Source of the DNA: Pelagibacterium limicola
Lineage (GTDB): Bacteria; Pseudomonadota; Alphaproteobacteria; Rhizobiales; Devosiaceae
Assembly (NCBI RefSeq): GCF_015694405.1
Contig: NZ_JADQDB010000002.1
Span: 62,001 to 126,000, forward strand
Length of the DNA: 64,000 nucleotides
Reading direction: 5' to 3'
Position numbers and translations under genes: made by a program. Under the pieces are notes generated by a model. That model ran no database searches and was not told where the DNA came from. It saw only the letters and a list, made by a program, of their open reading frames with translations. Of the stretch, positions 9,588 to 34,559 are shown piece by piece. The number at the start of each line of letters is the position of its first letter. Position 1 is the stretch's first letter.

Positions 9588-10951
9588 CCGCGACCGCGCC
9601 GGCCCGGCTGGAGAAGGGTACAGGACCATTCACCCGCTTCGAGCGGCTGGTCGCGGGCAGATATCTGCGTGCGCGCCGAAAAGATACCTTCATCTCGGTC
9701 ATTTCGGCTCTGACCATGGTGGGGATCGCCCTTGGCGTTGCGACGCTGATCGTGGTCATGAGTGTCATGAACGGCTTTCGCGACGAGCTCTTGAGCAAGA
9801 TTCTTGGCCTCAACGGCCATTTTACGGCCTTTCCGATTGAAGAGACTTTCCACGATTACGAGGCAGTCAAGGATCGCATCGAGCAGGTGCCTGGCGTCTT
9901 GGGCGTCGTGGCGTTCGTCGAAGGGCAGGCGCTCGCCACAGGCCACTACAATTCAGCCGGTGTCGCCGTGCGCGGCATGTCATACGAGGACATCTCCAAG
10001 CTCCCGCTCCTCAACCGGAGCGCCGTTCTCGGCGGGTGGGAGGATTGGGATGATCTGGGCGGCGTCGCCATCGGCATCCGCATGGCCAACCAACTCGGAC
10101 TGACGCTGGGCGATGCCATCACAATCGTCAGTCCGCGCGGCATCCAGACCCCTTTTGGCTCGACTCCGCAGATCCGCTCCTATCCGGTCAACGTCATCTT
10201 CGATGTCGGCATGGTCGAGTTCGACAGCTTCTTTGTCTTCATGCCCATCCGGTCCGCGCAGGATTATTTCCGGCTCTATTCCGACCGGCTGCGCGACGGC
10301 GTCGAACAGCCTGGCCTGATGGCGACCGACGAGGAAATCGATGCTGCCTATGAGCGCGTCTACAACGCTACCGCCATCGAGGTTTTCCTCGCAAATCCGG
10401 ACGGGACGCGCGCCATCCAGACTGACCTCGAGATCGCAGCTGGCCGTCCGATGCTTTTCACCGACTGGCAGCGGCGCAATGAAACCTTCTTCTCGGCGCT
10501 GCAGGTCGAGCGTGTCGTGATGTTTGTCATCCTCTCGATGATCGTTCTGGTCGCCGCCTTCAACATCATCTCGAGCCTCGTGATGCTGGTCAAAGACAAG
10601 GCAGGGGATATCGCCATCCTGCGCACGATGGGGGCAACCCGAGCCTCGATCATGCGCATTTTCTGCATGACGGGCACGGCGATCGGCTTCATCGGAACGT
10701 TTGCCGGCTTTTTGCTGGGGCTCGTCCTTGCAATCAACGCTGAATCCATCCGCGCCTGGGTGTCCGATCTCCTGGGCATCGCCCTGTTCCCGCCGGAGGT
10801 TTTCCTGCTCTCAGCGCTCCCTTCGCGCGTCGATGCTGTGGAAGTAACGGTGGTTCTTGTGATGGCGCTTGGGCTTTCTTTCCTCGCTACCCTCTATCCC
10901 GCTTGGCGCGCCGCGCAATACGATCCCGTTGAGGCGTTGCGTTATGAGTGA
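9584..10951 (+). CDS. lolC: Lipoprotein-releasing ABC transporter permease
   Basis: Inner-membrane permease of the LolCDE-type exporter that releases outer-membrane lipoproteins to the periplasmic chaperone. The GTG start overlaps the proS stop; 455 residues. The N-terminal cytoplasmic segment [21 protein letters not shown], a first helix at about residues 45-65, a large periplasmic domain and three C-terminal helices (FtsX-like) fit the family. A single gene serves for both LolC and LolE, as is common in alphaproteobacteria; the product is often named LolC/E. It is followed by lolD with an 8-base overlap. Confidence 0.94.
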
Positions 10952-11630
10952 TTTCCTTCTCGAGCTCAAAGACGTGCGCCAGAGCTACGGCGATGGCGAC
11001 GGAGCGGTGCATGTCCTCAAGGGCGCTGGTCTTGCCGTATCTCGCGGCGAACTCGTGGCGCTGGTCGCACCCTCCGGTGCAGGAAAATCTACCCTTCTAC
11101 ATATCTGCGGTTTGCTTGAACGCCCGAGGGGAGGAGAGGTGGCGATCCTCGGACAGTCCACTGCAAGGTTGTCGGACCGTCAGCGTACGCTGATGCGCCG
11201 CCATTCAATCGGCTATGTCTATCAGTTCCATCACCTGCTGCCCGAGTTTAGCGCAATCGAGAATGTGGTAATGCCCCAGCTCATCGCGGGCAAATCCGAC
11301 CGCGCCGCAAAGGAGCGGAGCATGGAACTTCTCGAGGTCATGGGCATTGGTCACCGCGCCGAACACCGCCCGGCGGAGCTTTCGGGCGGCGAGCAGCAAC
11401 GTGTCGCCATCGCCCGCGCCACGGCCAACAACCCGAGCTTGGTGCTCGCTGACGAGCCCACTGGCAATCTCGACCCCGCGACCTCCGAACGCGTCTTCGC
11501 CGCCCTTTCCCAACTGATCCGCGAACACGACGCTGGCTGCATCATTGCGACCCACAACCACGATCTCGCCCGCCGCGCCGACCGCATCGTGACGATTGCG
11601 GATGGCCACATTGAGCCGATGACGCTGTAG
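10944..11630 (+). CDS. lolD: Lipoprotein-releasing ABC transporter ATP-binding protein
   Basis: Cytoplasmic ATPase of the lipoprotein export system, 228 residues. The ATG at 10944 overlaps the end of lolC. Walker A reads [12 protein letters not shown] (Ala in place of the usual first Gly, which I recall as common in alphaproteobacterial LolD). ABC signature [14 protein letters not shown] and Walker [13 protein letters not shown] follow, with the switch His in [10 protein letters not shown]. The operon ends here; an 8-bp hairpin lies about 90 bases downstream. Confidence 0.95.
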
Positions 11631-11720
11631 GGCGTAACGCTTGCACCGAAGGGATACTGGTCGCAGGCAATGAGCCAGCGCGGGGATTGCGCTGACAGCA
11701 CCGAGCTCAGGCCTGCACTG

Positions 11721-11743
11721 CCGGCATTCCGTGCAAATGCCGG
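11721..11743 (+). terminator. Hairpin downstream of lolD
   Basis: CCGGCATT (11721-11728) pairs with AATGCCGG (11736-11743) around a 7-base loop. There is no T-run after it, so it is a weak terminator or an mRNA 3'-end stabiliser rather than a textbook intrinsic terminator. Confidence 0.35.
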
Positions 11744-11847
11744 AATTCCAACCTTCTCCCATCATGCTTCCGTTCCCGTGCCGATACGCTCGGTCGCGGT
11801 GCGTTAATAATTTGTTTATTACTTTCCGTTGTGGCCAGCGCGCGATA

Positions 11848-11876
11848 TGGACAGGAACAAACAATGAACATATAAG
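11848..11876 (+). promoter_or_regulatory. Sigma-70 promoter of the small SOS peptide gene
   Basis: TGGACA (11848-11853), a 17-base spacer and TATAAG (11871-11876). The spacer contains a complete LexA box. The predicted start near 11883 gives a leader of roughly 27 bases to the ATG at 11910. The lexA gene in this window has a promoter of closely similar build, with TATAAG and a 17-base spacer. Confidence 0.7.
11855..11869 (+). promoter_or_regulatory. LexA box (GAAC-N7-GAAC) before the 32-residue peptide gene
   Basis: GAAC at 11855-11858, seven bases, GAAC at 11866-11869. On the other strand this is GTTC-N7-GTTC, the direct-repeat LexA operator established for Rhizobiaceae, Rhodobacter and Caulobacter. 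It lies between the -35 and -10 elements, where bound LexA would block RNA polymerase. A third GAAC (11876-11879) is spaced by six, so it does not make a second consensus box. Confidence 0.8.
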
Positions 11877-11909
11877 AACAAAGACGAAACACCATAGTAG
11901 GAGGCTTTA

Positions 11910-12008
11910 ATGCTGAACATTGTGAAGGACTTCATGGCCCTGGCATCGTTGACCGCGTTTGGCGGTGTGCTCCTCGCTTACATGGACATGCTGGCTTATC
12001 TTGGCTGA
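11910..12008 (+). CDS. 32-residue single-helix membrane peptide, predicted SOS-induced
   Basis: The frame has a strong ribosome site (TAGGAGG at 11898-11904, five bases before ATG) and ends in TGA at 12006-12008. The peptide starts MLNIVKDF and is then almost entirely hydrophobic (residues 8-32, Ala, Leu, Gly, Met, Tyr), fitting one inner-membrane helix with a short charged N-terminus. Its promoter carries a LexA box, so DNA damage should induce it. By size, topology and control it resembles in kind Caulobacter SidA, a 29-residue SOS-induced division inhibitor. Sequence homology cannot be claimed at this length, and a role in division arrest is inference. It lies 84 bases upstream of dnaE on the same strand. 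I judge the gene real; the function is unknown. Confidence 0.8.
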   Translation: MLNIVKDFMALASLTAFGGVLLAYMDMLAYLG

Positions 12009-12092
12009 CCCTTGTGCATAAACCGCCCTCGCGGTTGGCGCGACGGGCTCGGGGTGGCACAAAGGGCAGTTGCCAGGAGAGAATCGTAAGCT

Positions 12093-15000
12093 ATGTCCGG
12101 TCCCGGTTTCGTTCACCTGCACGTGCATTCGTCCTATTCTTTGCTGGAAGGGGCGCTGCCGCTCGGCAAGATTCTCGACCTCGCCGCAAAGGACGGACAG
12201 CCCGCGATTGGCATTGCGGACACCAACAATCTCTTCGGCGCGCTCGAATTTTCCGAAAAAGCCGCGGGCAAGGGCATCCAGCCGATCACCGGGTGTGAAC
12301 TCGCCATCGATTTTGGCAGCGATGAGGATAACAAGCCCAACGAACGCGCCAACCTGGGAAAGGGCACCATCGTCCTGATCGCAGCGACGGAGCAGGGCTT
12401 CGCAAACCTCTCCACTATTGTGTCACGCGCCTATCTCGAGGGCAGCGACGGCAAGACCGCCGCGCATATCGATTGGCTCGAAGCTGCTGCCGAAGGGTTG
12501 ATTTGTCTGACGGGCGGACCGGAAGGAGCAATCGATCCCTATCTTGCTGCCGGAGTTGACGCTGCGGCCGAAATGCGGCTCCTCAAGCTCCATGGGCTGT
12601 TCGGCGACCGCCTCTATGTCGAAATCCAGCGTCATGACCGTCCGATCGAGAACGCCGTCGAGCCGCGCCTAATCGATCTTGCTTATCGCCACGGACTGCC
12701 GCTGGTCGCCACCAACGAACCTTATTTCCCGGGACAGGACGATTTCGATTCTCATGACGCGCTTCTGGCCATAGCGGCAGGCTCGGTCGTCGCCCAGACG
12801 GAGCGGCGGCGGCTATCCGACCAGCATTGGTTCAAGTCGCGCGCCGAGATGATCGCGCTTTTTTCAGACCTTCCCGAAGCGGTTGAGAGCACGGTGGAGA
12901 TCGCCCGTCGCGTAAGCTACCGCCCACGCACGCTCGATCCGATCCTCCCTAAGTTCGCAGCCGATCCCGGGCAGAGCGACGCCGAGGCCGTAGCGGCGGA
13001 GGCCGATGAATTGACCCGGCAGGCGGAAGAAGGGCTGGAAAAGCGCATCGAGATTTTCGGCATCGCCCCGGACACCACGCCCGAACAATACCGCGAACGT
13101 CTCGCCTTCGAGCTGAAGGTCATCCGGGATATGAAATTTCCCGGCTATTTCCTTATTGTTGCTGACTTTATCAAGTGGGCGAAGGCCCACGATATTCCCG
13201 TGGGCCCCGGACGCGGATCGGGCGCTGGATCTCTGGTCGCTTATGCTCTCACCATCACCGACTTGGACCCGCTCCGCTATAATCTCCTGTTCGAGCGCTT
13301 CCTCAATCCCGAACGCGTATCGATGCCAGACTTCGATATCGACTTCTGCCAGGAGCGTCGTGAGGAGGTCATCGACTACGTTCAGAAAAAGTACGGCGCC
13401 GATCAGGTCGCGCAGATCATCACCTTTGGAACGCTGCAACCGCGCGCTGCGCTGCGCGATGTAGGCCGCGTGCTTCAGATGCCTTATGGGCAGGTGGACC
13501 GCATCTGCAAGCTCGTACCCAACAATCCGGCGAACCCCGTCACGCTTGCCCAGGCGATCAACGACGAACCGCGCCTCCAAATGATGCGCGACGAGGACGA
13601 AACGGTCGCCGAACTCCTGCGTATCGCAGGAAAGCTCGAGGGGCTTTATCGTCACGCCTCGACTCATGCGGCCGGCATCGTCATCGGCGACCGCCCTCTG
13701 CATGAGTTGCTGCCGCTTTACCGCGATCCGCGCTCGGACATGCCCGTCACCCAGTACAACCTCAAATGGGTGGAACCAGCCGGCCTCGTGAAGTTCGACT
13801 TCCTTGGGTTGAAGACGCTGACCACGATCCGCTATGCGGTCGAGATGGTCAAATCCAAGGGCATCGATCTTGATATTGATGCCATTCCACTCGACGATGC
13901 GCCGACCTACCGGCTCTACGCCGATGGCGACACTTACGGCATCTTCCAGTTTGAAAGTCCGGGGATGCGGCGGGCGCTGGTCGATTTGAAGCCTGACCGC
14001 ATTGAAGACCTGATCGCCATGAACGCCCTCTACCGCCCTGGGCCGATGGACAATATCCCGAGCTTCATCAACAGAAAGCACGGGCGGGAAAAGGTCGAGT
14101 ACCCCCACGAATCCCTCTCCGCGGTGCTCGATGAAACCTATGGGATCATCGTCTATCAGGAGCAGGTTATGCAGATTGCCCAGCTCCTGTCCGGCTATTC
14201 GCTCGGTGAAGCTGACATGCTGCGCCGTGCGATGGGCAAGAAGATCAAGGCCGAGATGGACAAGCAGCGCGAGCGTTTCCGCGAAGGGGCGCTCCGGAAC
14301 GGACTCAAGGAAGCGCTGGCCGACAACATCTTCGATCTGCTCGCCAAGTTCGCCAATTATGGCTTCAACAAGAGCCACGCGGCGGCCTATGCATGGGTGT
14401 CGTACCAAACGGCGTGGCTCAAGACTCATTATCCGCATGAGTTTTATGCCGCCTCGATGACCCTCGACATGGGCCAGACGGACAAGCTGGCCGATTTCCG
14501 CCGGGAGGCCGAAAAGAAGGGTATCGCGATTGTCCCGCCCTGCATTAACCGCTCCGAGGTCAATTTCTCGGTGCATGACGGGCGCGTCCACTATTCGCTT
14601 TGCGCGGTAAAGGGGGTCGGGCGGCAGGTCGCAGAACATATCGTCGAGGTTCGTGGGAGCCAGCCTTTCATCGACCTTTCCGACTTTGCCCGCCGCATCG
14701 ACCCGAGAGTTATCAACAAGCGCACGCTCGAGACGCTCATCAATGCTGGAGCGTTTGATAGCCTCGTCAAGCGCCGCGAACAGGTGATCGCCGTCGCCGA
14801 TGCCATTGTCAGCACCGCCCAACGCGAAACATCGGGCCGTGCCGACGGCATCGAGGACATGTTCGCCACCAGCCAGCCAGATGCGATCATGCTGCCCGAG
14901 CATGTCGAACCCTGGAGCCTCACCGAACGGCTCGCCCGAGAGCACGCTGCCATCGGCTTTTATCTCTCGGCACATCCCCTCGACGATTATTCCGAACTCT

Positions 15001-15539
15001 TTGAAAAACTCCGCGTCCAGCGTTGGGCGACATTCGAGCGCGCCGCCCATGCAGGCGCCGTAGCTGGGCGGCTCGCAGGTACGGTGATTTCGCGACAGGA
15101 TCGCAAGACCCGGAAGGGATCGACCATGACGATCCTGATGCTTTCGGATCCCAGCGGGTCGTTTGAATGCGTCGCCTTTTCCGAGCAGATGTCCGATTAC
15201 GGCCATCTGCTCGAACAGGGCAGGTCGGTTGTCATGGAGGTCGGGGCCGACGCCCGTCCCGACGGCGTACGCCTGCGCCTGCTTAAGGCCGAGGCCATCG
15301 ATGCTTCTGTTGAAAAGCTTGGTCGCCGGATGACGATCTTTGCGGGCAGCGAATCGTGCATTGCACCGATCAAGTCCCAACTCCAGCCGGGCGGGGAAGG
15401 GGTGGTGAGCCTCATCCTTCTGCGCGACCAGGGGGAACGCGAATATGAGATCGAACTTCCGGGCCAGTTCCGCCTGAGCCCGCAGCTTGCCGGCGGCCTC
15501 AAGGCCATCAGCGGAGTCGTCGACGTACGGTTGAACTAG
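12093..15539 (+). CDS. dnaE: DNA polymerase III subunit alpha (replicative, DnaE1)
   Basis: Catalytic subunit of the replicative DNA polymerase III, 1148 residues, the normal DnaE1 length. An N-terminal PHP domain begins with FVHLHVHSSYSLLEGA. The palm catalytic acidic residues are in PDFDIDFCQERR near residue 415 and DFLGLKTLTTI near 570. Helix-hairpin-helix and OB-fold regions follow after about 850. An ATG at 12093 is preceded by GGAGA at some distance. It sits downstream of the predicted SOS peptide gene and may share its transcript in part. Long open frames on the opposite strand are shadows of this gene. Confidence 0.97.
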   Translation: MSGPGFVHLHVHSSYSLLEGALPLGKILDLAAKDGQPAIGIADTNNLFGALEFSEKAAGKGIQPITGCELAIDFGSDEDNKPNERANLGKGTIVLIAATEQGFANLSTIVSRAYLEGSDGKTAAHIDWLEAAAEGLICLTGGPEGAIDPYLAAGVDAAAEMRLLKLHGLFGDRLYVEIQRHDRPIENAVEPRLIDLAYRHGLPLVATNEPYFPGQDDFDSHDALLAIAAGSVVAQTERRRLSDQHWFKSRAEMIALFSDLPEAVESTVEIARRVSYRPRTLDPILPKFAADPGQSDAEAVAAEADELTRQAEEGLEKRIEIFGIAPDTTPEQYRERLAFELKVIRDMKFPGYFLIVADFIKWAKAHDIPVGPGRGSGAGSLVAYALTITDLDPLRYNLLFERFLNPERVSMPDFDIDFCQERREEVIDYVQKKYGADQVAQIITFGTLQPRAALRDVGRVLQMPYGQVDRICKLVPNNPANPVTLAQAINDEPRLQMMRDEDETVAELLRIAGKLEGLYRHASTHAAGIVIGDRPLHELLPLYRDPRSDMPVTQYNLKWVEPAGLVKFDFLGLKTLTTIRYAVEMVKSKGIDLDIDAIPLDDAPTYRLYADGDTYGIFQFESPGMRRALVDLKPDRIEDLIAMNALYRPGPMDNIPSFINRKHGREKVEYPHESLSAVLDETYGIIVYQEQVMQIAQLLSGYSLGEADMLRRAMGKKIKAEMDKQRERFREGALRNGLKEALADNIFDLLAKFANYGFNKSHAAAYAWVSYQTAWLKTHYPHEFYAASMTLDMGQTDKLADFRREAEKKGIAIVPPCINRSEVNFSVHDGRVHYSLCAVKGVGRQVAEHIVEVRGSQPFIDLSDFARRIDPRVINKRTLETLINAGAFDSLVKRREQVIAVADAIVSTAQRETSGRADGIEDMFATSQPDAIMLPEHVEPWSLTERLAREHAAIGFYLSAHPLDDYSELFEKLRVQRWATFERAAHAGAVAGRLAGTVISRQDRKTRKGSTMTILMLSDPSGSFECVAFSEQMSDYGHLLEQGRSVVMEVGADARPDGVRLRLLKAEAIDASVEKLGRRMTIFAGSESCIAPIKSQLQPGGEGVVSLILLRDQGEREYEIELPGQFRLSPQLAGGLKAISGVVDVRLN

Positions 15540-15542
15540 TCC

Positions 15543-15564
15543 GGGCTTGCCTTGTCGCAAGCCC
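15543..15564 (+). terminator. 8-bp hairpin after dnaE
   Basis: GGGCTTGC (15543-15550) pairs perfectly with GCAAGCCC (15557-15564), loop CTTGTC, four bases after the dnaE stop. The following bases TCCTGTAT are only weakly T-rich. The hairpin overlaps the predicted rpsB promoter. Confidence 0.45.
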
Positions 15565-15575
15565 TCCTGTATAGC
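15547..15575 (+). promoter_or_regulatory. Putative sigma-70 promoter of rpsB-tsf
   Basis: TTGCCT (15547-15552), 17-base spacer, TATAGC (15570-15575). A start near 15582 would give a leader of about 110 bases before rpsB, a length that could hold ribosomal-protein feedback control. Confidence 0.5.
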
Positions 15576-15689
15576 CCGCAGCGTTAAATCCACATGCAAA
15601 GGCTGGTTCCGTGACCGAACGGGGCCGATCCGGTGGCGGGAAACCGTCCATGCGCCCTTTGCAGAGGCAAAACCGGAAAGGAATACGCA

Positions 15690-16475
15690 ATGGCATTGCC
15701 AGATTTTTCCATGCGCCAGCTTCTTGAAGCCGGTGTCCACTTCGGCCACCAGAAGCACCGCTGGAACCCCAAGATGGAACGCTTCATTTTCGGCGTTCGT
15801 AACGATATCCATATCATTGACCTGAGCCAGACCGTGCCCGCGCTGTATCGCGCGCTGCAACTCGTCTCCGATACGGTCGCCGAAGGTGGCCGCGTGCTGT
15901 TCGTCGGCACCAAGCGCCAGGCCGCCCCGCTTGTCGCCGAAGCTGCCCGCCAGTCCGCTCAGTATTATGTCAATTCCCGCTGGCTCGGCGGTATGCTGAC
16001 CAACTGGCAGACGATTTCCCACTCGATCGCCCGCCTTCGTGAGCTTGAAGCTCTCGAAGCCGAAGGCGCTTCGGGCCTCACCAAGCGCGAACGCCTGCAG
16101 CGCAGCCGCGAGCAGGAACGCCTCGAGCGCGATCTCGGCGGCATCAAGGATATGGGCAATGTGCCCAACCTGCTGTTCGTGATCGATACGAATAAGGAGG
16201 CCAACGCGATCAAGGAAGCCCGTCGTCTCGGCATCCCGGTCGTTGCCATCGTGGACACCAACTGTGATCCGGACATCGTTGATTTCCCGATTCCGGGCAA
16301 TGATGACGCGGCGCGCGCCCTTGAGCTTTACCTGTCGCTCATTTCCAAGGCTGCAATTGACGGCATTTCGCGCTCCTCATCGTCAATGGGCCGCGATCTT
16401 GGTGCTTCCACCGAGGTGCTCGAAGAGCCCGCCCTGGCTGCCGAAACGCCAGAAAGCGAAGCCGTTCAGGCTTAA
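15690..16475 (+). CDS. rpsB: 30S ribosomal protein S2
   Basis: Structural protein of the small ribosomal subunit, 261 residues. The ATG at 15690 is preceded by AAAGGAA and gives the N-terminus [20 protein letters not shown]. Conserved S2 segments [28 protein letters not shown] and [14 protein letters not shown] are present, with a C-terminal Ala/Glu-rich extension. An upstream in-frame ATG (15633) adds unconserved Cys/Arg-rich residues and is rejected. tsf follows after 92 bases holding a strong hairpin. Confidence 0.97.
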
Positions 16476-31640: not shown

Positions 31641-33776
31641 ATGACCGAGGGGGCGGCACCGCGGCGGATCGCGTTCGGGCGGAAAGTTCCCCCCGACGGG
31701 CACCGCTGGCTGCCTGCTTTGGCAAGTCGTGTACAATATTTAGCCTCGGCGTTTTGGACCGCGACGAACGACGCGGCCGGCCAACGGCGCACGTTCAATC
31801 TGATTCCGTTCGCCATCGTGGCGGGGATCGTTGCTTTCCGGCTTCTGCCATTCGAACCCGACCTGTTCGTGCTTGCCTGTGGCGCCGGCATTGCTGTCGC
31901 CGCAATTTATTTCGTGCGCCGGACGCACTGGGCAGTCATGGGCCTTGCGGCGCTCGTGGGTTTCAATGCCTTGCCTTTTCATGGCGCCGTGTTCGGTACA
32001 CCCATGCTCGCTGCGCCGAAATACGGCCAGTATACGATGCGGATCGATGCCGTCATTTTCGACGATGGCGAGGCGCAACGATGGCTGGTTTCAGGAATTG
32101 ACGCCGAAGACCCGAGGGACGATCCCGGTGTGCGCCGCGCGCGCGTCGCTGTTCCCGGCAATCTGGCGGTGCAACCGGGTGACCGGGTCCATGCCCGCGT
32201 GCGGTTTTATCCCATTCCTGCGCCAGTTGCCCCAGGCAGCTACGATGCCCAATTTACCGGATATTTCGATGGCATTGGCGCCTATGGCGCGGTCCTCGAT
32301 ACGTCGGGGATAATCGCCAGCGGGGAGGGTGAGCTATTCCGGTTCACTGAGAGGCTCCGACGCGCCATCGCCGAACGGATATTGACTGTTCTCGACCCTG
32401 ATAATGCTGGGATTGCGATCGCGCTCATCACCGGCGATCAGAGCCGGTTATCTGAGGATGATCGCACCCTTATGGCATCGGTCGGCCTCGCACACGTGCT
32501 GGCGATTTCCGGACTGCACCTTACGCTCGTGGCTGGAACGGCGTTTTTCGCATTGCGAGCGGCACTAAGCCTCTCATGGCAGGCAGCCCAGCAGCTTCCG
32601 GTCAAGCGCATCGCGGCCCTGGGAGGGATTTCGGTCGCAGTCGCCTATCTCGTTATTTCCGGCATGGGTATCGCTGCCATCCGCGCAACCATCATGCTGA
32701 CGCTGATCTTTGCCGCCATTGTCTTCGGACGGCAGGCGCTGACCATGCGCAATGTGGCGCTTGCGGGCCTCATCATTGCGCTCACCGATCCTGCGAGCAT
32801 TTTCCGCGCCAGTTTCCAGCTTTCCTTCGCTGCCGTCATTGCGCTCATCGCGGCCTATGAAATGGCCCGCGAGAACCGGGAGCGCCGCGCGCAGCAAGGC
32901 AACGCAGTTCTAAGACTCTTTCTCGATATAGCGATGACCAGCATCATCGCGGGGCTCGCAACGCTGGCCTTCACTGCCTACCATTTCCAGCAGACCGCGC
33001 CGTTCGGCCTGCTCGGCAATCTATTGGCCATGCCCATCGTCACCTTCATCGTGATGCCCTCGGCGCTTTTTGCGACGCTTCTCATTCCAGTCGGGCTCGA
33101 CGAGCCATGCTTCCGAGTGATGGGTCTGGGTATCCAGGCAATGTTATGGTGCGCGCAAATGGTACGCGCCTTCAGCGGCGGCTTTGATCCCAGCCCGCTC
33201 CTCGCGCCCTCCGCGTTGATTGTCTGCTTCGCCGCGCTCGGCTGGCTCGGTTTTTACCGAACTCGAATTCGCCTGCTGGGACCACTGGTCGCGGTGCCCG
33301 TCATCTTTCTCTTCTGCGCTGAACAGGCCCCGGATGTCCTCGTCGCCGATTCTACGCAGGCCGTGGCGGTGCGTCATGACGGGCAACTCGCTTTGGTGGC
33401 TGGACGCGTGGGCACCTTTGCAGTGAATGTCTGGTCCGAACGCTATATGGAAACCATCCTGCCGAGTCACGAGCAGACGGGCTGCGATGCGCTGGGCTGC
33501 ATCATAGACACCTCGCTGGGCTTCGCCCTGGCTCTTGCGAAGGACCCTGCCGCATTCGCGGAAGATTGTGATCTTGCCGATCTCGTCATCACCCGCATGC
33601 CCGCGCCTGCAGGGTGCAGCCAGTCAGCGACCGTAATCGACGCCGCAAGCCTTGAGCGTTACGGCACTCACGCGCTCTATTGGAACGAAAGCGCCCACCA
33701 GTTCGCCGTCAAAACGTCCATAAGTGACCCCGCCCGTCACTGGCGCATTCGCTACAGTGACGCGACACATCAGTAA
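31641..33776 (+). CDS. comEC: ComEC/Rec2-family membrane protein, metallo-beta-lactamase part degenerate
   Basis: Polytopic inner-membrane protein related to the DNA-uptake channel ComEC, 711 residues from the ATG at 31641 (GGGCAGGG before it; an earlier ATG at 31581 is possible). The N-terminal OB-like domain is followed by the competence domain with [18 protein letters not shown] and [14 protein letters not shown]. The last 150 residues are where a metallo-beta-lactamase domain would be, but no HxHxDH motif is seen. Nuclease activity is therefore unlikely, and true competence cannot be inferred. It converges on lexA with a 7-base overlap. Confidence 0.88.
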
Positions 33777-34480
33777 CGGCGCAAGAGGCCGACCAGACGA
33801 CCCTGCACCTTCACACGGTCAGGCCCGAAAATGCGCGTTTCATAAGCCGGGTTTGCGGCCTCCAGGGCCACGGCGTTACCTTTGCGGCGCAACCGCTTGA
33901 GCGTCGCTTCCTCGTCATCGACCAGCGCGACTACAATCTCGCCATTTCCGGCGGTATCCTGCTTCTTGATCAGCACGGTATCGCCGTCGAAAATGCCCGC
34001 ATCGATCATCGAATCCCCGCGCACTTCCAACGCGAAATGCTCGCCTCCGCCCAGCATTTCGGGCGGCACAGAAATGGTATGCGAATGGGTCTGGATGGCT
34101 TCGATGGGCACGCCGGCCGCAATCCGCCCCATGACCGGTATGGAAACCGGCTGGCCGGCATCGTTGTCCGCCGTCACAGCGGGGCGAGGAGGCACCTTGC
34201 CGAGATTACCTTCGATAACGCTCGGCTCGAAGCGAGACTTGCGCCCACCAAGCGAGGGGTTCATGGAATCCGGGAGCTTCATCACTTCGAGCGCGCGCGC
34301 TCGGTTCGGTAGCCGACGGATAAACCCGCGTTCCTCGAGCGCCGTAATCAGCCTGTGGATGCCCGACTTCGACTTCAGGTCCAGGGCGTCCTTCATTTCA
34401 TCGAACGAAGGGGGAATCCCACTTTCCTTCATGCGTTCATGAATGAACATCAGGAGATCGTGCTGCTTGCGCGTGAGCAT
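33770..34480 (-). CDS. lexA: SOS repressor LexA
   Basis: Transcriptional repressor of the SOS response, self-cleaved on RecA filaments. 236 residues, the longer alphaproteobacterial form. Winged helix-turn-helix at residues 1-65 ([20 protein letters not shown]), cleavage site Ala122-Gly123 in GRIAAGVP, catalytic Ser157 (GDSMIDAG) and Lys195 (TLKRL). Its promoter carries two GAAC-N7-GAAC/GTTC-N7-GTTC boxes, so it is autoregulated. It lies 3' of moeA but has its own promoter in the 91-base gap. Confidence 0.97.
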
Positions 34481-34514: not shown

Positions 34515-34529
34515 GAACAAAGGCTGAAC
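34515..34529 (-). promoter_or_regulatory. LexA box 2 of lexA
   Basis: Plus-strand GAAC (34515-34518), seven bases, GAAC (34526-34529); read on the minus strand this is GTTC-N7-GTTC. It lies just downstream of the lexA -10 element, around the transcription start, and would add to repression. Confidence 0.8.
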
Positions 34530-34530
34530 T

Positions 34531-34559
34531 CTTATACGTGTTCTTTAAATGTTCCGCAA
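34531..34559 (-). promoter_or_regulatory. lexA promoter
   Basis: On the minus strand TTGCGG (34559-34554), a 17-base spacer, TATAAG (34536-34531). LexA box 1 fills most of the spacer. The build closely matches the promoter of the small peptide gene at 11848-11876. Confidence 0.7.
34540..34554 (-). promoter_or_regulatory. LexA box 1 of lexA
   Basis: Plus-strand GTTC (34540-34543), seven bases, GTTC (34551-34554), a perfect alphaproteobacterial LexA operator. On the transcribed strand it reads GAAC-N7-GAAC, lies in the -35/-10 spacer and touches the first base of the -35. Confidence 0.85.

Follow-up and report, generated by a model that had tools for sequence, protein, structure and literature searches.

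A short membrane-peptide gene with a LexA-type operator upstream of dnaE in Pelagibacterium limicola appears to be a diverged counterpart of sidA

We analyzed a window of 64,000 nucleotides of the Pelagibacterium limicola genome and found, directly upstream of dnaE, a 32-codon gene with a LexA-type operator whose product appears, from sequence comparison, to be the counterpart of the Caulobacter division inhibitor SidA, though so divergent that the curated SidA model fails to recognize it. Related peptides seem to occupy the same place upstream of dnaE in many other Alphaproteobacteria. We consider it likely that the gene is a sidA orthologue, coding for an inner-membrane helix that would be repressed by LexA, induced by damage, and arrest division at FtsW. 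The features of the locus, together with the lexA gene used for comparison, are the following (positions in the window):

10944 to 11630, plus strand: lolD, ABC transporter ATPase, the upstream neighbour (the listed frame, 10869 to 11630, starts from a TTG; an ATG lies at 10944)
11804 to 11818, plus strand: CtrA-like motif TTAA-N7-TTTA, which departs from YTAA-N7-YTAA at one position and begins 51 bases 5' of the LexA box
11848 to 11853, plus strand: -35 element TGGACA, read from the sequence
11855 to 11869, plus strand: LexA box 1, GAACAAACAATGAAC, a perfect GAAC-N7-GAAC within the 17-base spacer between the -35 and the -10
11871 to 11876, plus strand: -10 element TATAAG, invariant in 11 of 11 distinct promoters of the genus
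11876 to 11890, plus strand: LexA-like box 2, GAACAAAGACGAAAC, with one mismatch; it overlaps the -10 and lies 21 bases downstream of box 1
11898 to 11904, plus strand: ribosome binding site TAGGAGG, followed after 5 bases by the ATG at 11910
11910 to 12008, plus strand: putative SidA-type single-helix membrane peptide of 32 residues, MLNIVKDFMALASLTAFGGVLLAYMDMLAYLG, 32 codons, stop at 12006 to 12008
12012 to 12062, plus strand: conserved non-coding pattern TTGTGCA ... GGTTGG ... TGGCACAA in the gap between peptide gene and dnaE
12093 to 15539, plus strand: dnaE, replicative DNA polymerase III alpha, starting 84 bases after the peptide gene
33770 to 34480, minus strand: lexA, the presumed repressor, with its own boxes at 34515 to 34529 and 34540 to 34554 flanking a TATAAG

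The promoter, perfect LexA box, ribosome site and 32-codon frame that a first-pass annotation had reported in the interval between lolD and dnaE (11631 to 12092) can all be read directly from the sequence. By itself the box is not above chance, as the window holds three against 2.29 expected and the whole genome 108 against 77 for the reversed pattern. It is because frame and box are conserved before dnaE that we take both to be real, and on this comparative evidence the 32-codon frame is a gene. Its product is under purifying selection, judging from eleven distinct coding sequences of the genus, for which the 55 pairwise comparisons give a mean pN of 0.17 and a mean pS of 0.62, and 413, 180 and 844 differences at the first, second and third codon positions, respectively. 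AlphaFold2, run on the single peptide sequence, returns one helix spanning residues 2 to 31 (mean pLDDT 95.0), and hydropathy reaches 1.79 over 17 residues, so that in length, predicted structure and hydropathy the 32-residue peptide fits one membrane-spanning helix of SidA-like length (about 29 residues). Neither Pfam nor NCBIfam gave a relevant match to it. Conserved positions 0, +3, +7, +10 and +17 look one-sided on a helix, and a conserved helix face is not claimed because the periodicity of conservation is not significant (p = 0.18).

Upstream of the gene, a promoter block of the form GACArGAACAAA...GAA...TATAAGAACAAA is conserved throughout the genus with 25 invariant columns, and the flanks further upstream hardly align. 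Among the 11 distinct genus promoters, the A and the C of the -35 GACA are invariant, and its G and last A nearly so; the GAAC of the first half-site of box 1 and the GA of the second are likewise invariant, and GGAG-like stretches occur at the position of the ribosome site. A TTGAC at most 16 bases 5' of the box is also present in 21 of 32 loci from the order and in 20 of 26 from the class. Box 1 is perfect in 7 of the 13 genus genomes and deviates by one base in 6, and box 2 has at most one mismatch in all 13 (perfect in 3), with an invariant first half-site. Over the 21 loci of the family-wide search, box 1 is perfect in 14 and one base off in one half-site in the remaining 7. The promoter is absent from the listing of a simple sigma-70 scan, because TATAAG lacks the final T that the scan requires. 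The first-pass annotation had also likened its geometry to that of the lexA promoter, a fair comparison, since both have two boxes around a TATAAG, with 1 base between box and -10 at the peptide promoter and 3 at lexA.

Seven loci (L003, L004, L006, L007, L008, L012 and L014) have lost one base of the box 1 consensus, in a single half-site, and keep the half-site after the -10; operator strength may therefore vary between species.

The peptide gene lies directly upstream of dnaE in the window, in all 21 loci recovered by a search of 41 genomes, and in Caulobacteraceae loci (see below). The 41-genome search found it in all 13 genomes of the genus (own genome included), in 7 of 12 other genomes of the family, and in 1 of the 16 genomes that represent other families of the order; lolD motifs (LSGGE.QR type) lie 5' of the peptide in 19 of the 21 loci. 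Run against 297 genomes of the order, a profile built from the family peptides matched clearly in several further families and led to 28 new loci, 26 of them followed by dnaE and 22 with a perfect box (four of these loci repeat genomes of the 41-genome search, and one, L044, is cut by a contig end). At the level of the class, the best match of the first family profile outside the own genome was G445 (E 0.00139), and this locus, as well as the weaker G319 and G516, adjoins dnaE and is a real member.

Since a peptide this short drifts past sequence search, and most class matches were chance-like, we anchored the search on dnaE, looking for a perfect box in the 500 bases 5' of it. In the order sample (71 of 71 genomes, 44 families), a perfect box is present in 36 genomes and a box together with a short hydrophobic frame in 34, the peptide profile used in this analysis having been partly trained on loci of the same set; 100 dinucleotide shuffles gave 1.24 boxes (maximum 4) and a mean of 0.04 for box plus frame (maximum 1). 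In the class sample (137 of 143 genomes, the other six having no dnaE match), the corresponding counts are 27 and 19, own genome included, against 1.45 (maximum 5) and 0.03 (maximum 1) in shuffles. The first-pass annotation had staked its proposal on conservation of the frame or the box in close relatives, and such conservation was found in the genus, the family, the order and the class; a perfect LexA box like the one it described stands with a short hydrophobic frame before dnaE in 34 of the 71 order genomes.

No perfect box was found in the examined stretch of 35 of the 71 order genomes and 110 of the 137 class genomes. The gene is still there in some of them: in L336 the box that accompanies the peptide is imperfect, and G043 has both some 600 bases 5' of dnaE, outside the examined stretch. 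A 29-residue peptide in L139 falls below the hydropathy cut and is not counted among the 19 of the class. In other genomes the gene may have been lost or moved, and many of the class genomes in the sample are small.

Two genomes of family f4, L398 and L402, keep the box and a hydrophobic frame although strongly reduced (1.4 and 1.3 million bases), and the L402 peptide has no profile match at E up to 0.1. Three loci from family f58 and Parvibaculum (L081, L082 and L197) carry an N-terminal extension of about 14 to 15 residues before the conserved helix.

The link to SidA comes from the Caulobacteraceae. All four named records of this family that we inspected, one of them a Phenylobacterium, have a LexA box and a 30-residue hydrophobic peptide before dnaE, and a profile of these four plus one more sequence matches 112 of 119 Caulobacteraceae genomes at E up to 0.1. 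We read 50 of these loci; the short hydrophobic frame precedes dnaE in 49 of them, and the box is perfect in 39. Three genomes could be placed close to Caulobacter crescentus through MipZ, which differs at 4, 1 and 1 of 263 residues from the solved structure 2xj4, which we take to be C. crescentus MipZ; in two of them, G714 (4 differences) included, the locus was read (L250 and L252), and both have a 29-residue peptide and the box GAACATCTTGTGAAC directly before dnaE. With 71.3 bits, the L250 peptide, from a genome close to Caulobacter, exceeds the cut-off of 35 set for NF033228, 'cell division inhibitor SidA', and the Phenylobacterium peptide reaches 54.1 bits. Of the control genomes run against this model one exceeds the cut-off, and from the genomes listed, which include Caulobacter vibrioides, we infer that it is this species. 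As the dnaE-adjacent peptides of Caulobacteraceae score on the SidA model, sidA is the gene of the slot before dnaE.

The same model gave no match to the window peptide at E up to 10, none in its own genome, and none above cut-off over 143 genomes of the class, including G369 (apparently a Caulobacteraceae), which reaches 18.1 bits. Since the curated model misses it, the window peptide would be a divergent SidA-type orthologue that is not filed under NF033228. It shares with SidA (Caulobacter crescentus) a LexA-type box, a single helix of about 30 residues, the place directly before dnaE, and an alignment that runs free of gaps from a K/R-D/E pair to near the tail. It differs in having 32 rather than 29 residues, with a tail three residues longer, and in lacking the F-V-W-M core common in SidA.

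We assessed homology across this distance by scoring profiles built from different families against each peptide and 200 of its own shuffled copies; for this set alternative starts were chosen by eye and several near-identical peptides left out. With a profile built without the window's family, all 23 family peptides score above all their shuffles, and the window peptide reaches 18.9 bits on a profile lacking its own family, a score attained by none of 2000 full and none of 2000 segment-wise shuffles. Conversely, a profile without Caulobacteraceae gives their peptides up to 28.2 bits, with 25 of 29 above all own shuffles. Profiles from one family connect the two groups more weakly: the Caulobacteraceae-only profile lifts 15 of the 23 peptides of the window's family above all of their shuffles, and the window-family-only profile does so for only 4 of 29 Caulobacteraceae peptides. 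On the Caulobacteraceae-only profile the window peptide scores 12.3 bits, a value reached by one of 2000 full shuffles and by none of 2000 segment-wise ones. The Parvibaculum sedimenti peptide is intermediate, with 24.1 and 17.2 bits. By this measure homology to SidA appears clear when many families enter the profile and weak with Caulobacteraceae alone. The likeness to SidA that the first-pass annotation had proposed is supported by the shared slot before dnaE, and by the profile similarity and intermediates that join the two groups of peptides. Eight families (f53, f83, f96, f116, f125, f148, f154 and f157) have peptides that beat their shuffles on neither of the two single-family profiles; what links them to the rest is chiefly their position and operator.

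A loose pattern, [K,R,Q,H,E,Y,V]-[D,E,N]-two residues-[A,S,T,E,G], fits 102 of 105 peptides; among these, 80 have K or R in the first position, 95 D or E in the second, 81 A in the fifth, and 90 an F ten residues after the acid, the pattern itself having been used to set their register. These conserved charged and aromatic positions suggest that the helix has a partner.

The position of the gene allows a second explanation, namely that the LexA promoter serves chiefly to raise dnaE during SOS, and that the short frame is a leader peptide tuning dnaE expression. The slot precedes dnaE at every locus read with a recognized dnaE, and the 84 bases between the two genes in the window contain no terminator-like site, so that transcription from the damage promoter may extend into dnaE. 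A conserved pattern also lies in the gap; aligned over the 11 distinct sequences of the genus, it has 14 invariant columns, grouped as TGTG, GT-G and TGGCA. However, we could not find any conserved RNA structure in it: the consensus energy is -0.49 kcal/mol with the covariation term against, and single folds have z scores of -0.25 to -1.14. An Rfam scan of 11600 to 12200 gave one chance-level match, to 5.8S rRNA (13.6 bits against a gathering score of 42). Moreover, the conservation of residues across families in one register, together with a pN far below pS, exceeds what a leader would need, and the Caulobacter peptide is itself described as blocking division (PMC4211646). We therefore hold a leader function to be improbable. 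The position next to dnaE seems to be ancestral and not due to chance.

On the strand opposite dnaE there is an open frame of 1052 codons (12864 to 16022, minus strand), probably an effect of codon bias and no gene.

A further element of the window promoter is the CtrA-like motif, which resembles TTAA-N7-TTAA, presumably the CtrA site. In the loci of the window's family it is present within one mismatch in 19 of 27 and exactly in 10 of 27, against 2.15 (maximum 7) and 0.12 (maximum 2) over 200 shuffles; near-duplicates (L004, L007, L028) and repeat genomes were left out of this count, which relatedness among the remaining sequences still inflates. Control spacers of 6 and 8 give 4 of 27 each, against about 2.1 in shuffles. 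The family motif mostly lies 50 or 61 bases before the LexA box, positions about one helical turn apart. Outside the family the motif is near background in the three sets counted, with 4 of 32 (shuffles 3.0), 3 of 34 (2.5) and 2 of 37 (1.2); the last are the Caulobacteraceae (37 of 40 loci kept), from which the window promoter differs in this respect. All four matches in the order nevertheless stand at -52 or -53, and a CtrA half-site near that place occurs in 7 of 32 order loci against 0 and 2 in controls, and in 1 of 26 class loci against 0 and 1, an excess that is suggestive only. The motif, which CtrA may bind in the window's family, suggests a cell-cycle input into the SOS promoter or dnaE.

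TisB of E. coli is a short LexA-controlled membrane peptide toxin, and it points to another explanation, an SOS-induced membrane-depolarizing toxin of the TisB/DinQ kind that lowers the energy state and favours dormancy. The size, the single helix and the LexA box of the window peptide resemble those of TisB and of DinQ as the latter is described. TisB and DinQ are toxins under antisense RNA control. The gene in the window, however, has a fixed chromosomal place and is not scattered, and its product has conserved charged and aromatic positions and profile similarity to SidA. On these features a toxin of this kind seems improbable.

Other division inhibitors are less close than SidA. SulA of E. 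coli, a soluble protein, is likewise SOS-induced. It acts, however, on FtsZ polymerization, and is described as not widely conserved beyond gamma-proteobacteria (PMC4211646). DidA of Caulobacter (71 residues, DriD-controlled) is also a small single-helix inhibitor, acting on FtsW/I/N, but it is reported as SOS-independent and larger, and is encoded at another locus, CCNA03212 (PMC4211646). In Gram-positive bacteria YneA, ChiZ, SosA and DivS are damage-induced small membrane inhibitors of septal synthesis, but are larger and some have a LysM domain (PMC13396833); yneA, divS, chiZ and sidA are termed unrelated genes (PMC4211646).

We propose an FtsW-directed, LexA-controlled arrest for the window peptide because this is how SidA acts. 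SidA, with 29 residues, is described as residing in the inner membrane and inhibiting division via FtsW (PMC4211646); lexA-deleted cells are reported to filament owing to sidA (PMC12700426), and mitomycin C to induce its promoter strongly (PMC5189948). By analogy, LexA in the undamaged Pelagibacterium cell would sit on box 1, and probably on box 2 as well, straddling the -10 of a strong promoter and keeping the gene off. Upon DNA damage, RecA-driven cleavage of LexA would let the promoter fire, and from the strong ribosome site a 32-residue helix would be made and inserted in the inner membrane, presumably with its N-terminus inside. There it would bind FtsW, and possibly also FtsN/FtsI, within the late division machinery and keep septal wall synthesis inactive until repair ends. 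The whole genome has one match to FtsW/RodA/SpoVE (G000:C3:157084-158118), which would leave a single such target for the helix.

It may also be that the peptide blocks division through another partner or step than SidA does, such as FtsN, FtsI or the polar-growth machinery, the targets having diverged. The peptide sequence has drifted beyond the SidA model; SidA itself is reported to contact FtsN in two-hybrid assays, and mutations in both FtsW and FtsI to overcome it (PMC4211646); and the AlphaFold 3 models that place SidA on FtsW helix 7 are described as not of high confidence (PMC13396833). We regard such a change of partner as rather unlikely, and favour arrest at FtsW.

In the parts of the literature covered, SidA is treated as a Caulobacter inhibitor (PMC4211646, PMC12700426, PMC13396833), and our search found no paper tying it to the dnaE locus or to orthologues beyond Caulobacteraceae, though the founding paper, which lay outside the search, may discuss homologues. 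Taken together, our data admit a broader reading, which we offer tentatively: that the slot is an ancestral alphaproteobacterial damage checkpoint, kept through most of the history of the class while the peptide drifted beyond recognition, where one LexA promoter would serve a division inhibitor and the replicative polymerase, and where in the window's family the promoter would also hear CtrA, tying damage, replication capacity and division at one locus. Genes this short get missed; here, sequence search reached few of them, and it took position combined with operator to find them. Should the slot contain SidA orthologues throughout, a named, deletable candidate for the halt of division after damage would be at hand, at a known genomic position, in many Alphaproteobacteria of the order, and diverged versions by the dozen, each with its own FtsW, would become available for covariation and swap work on how a single helix stops septal wall synthesis.
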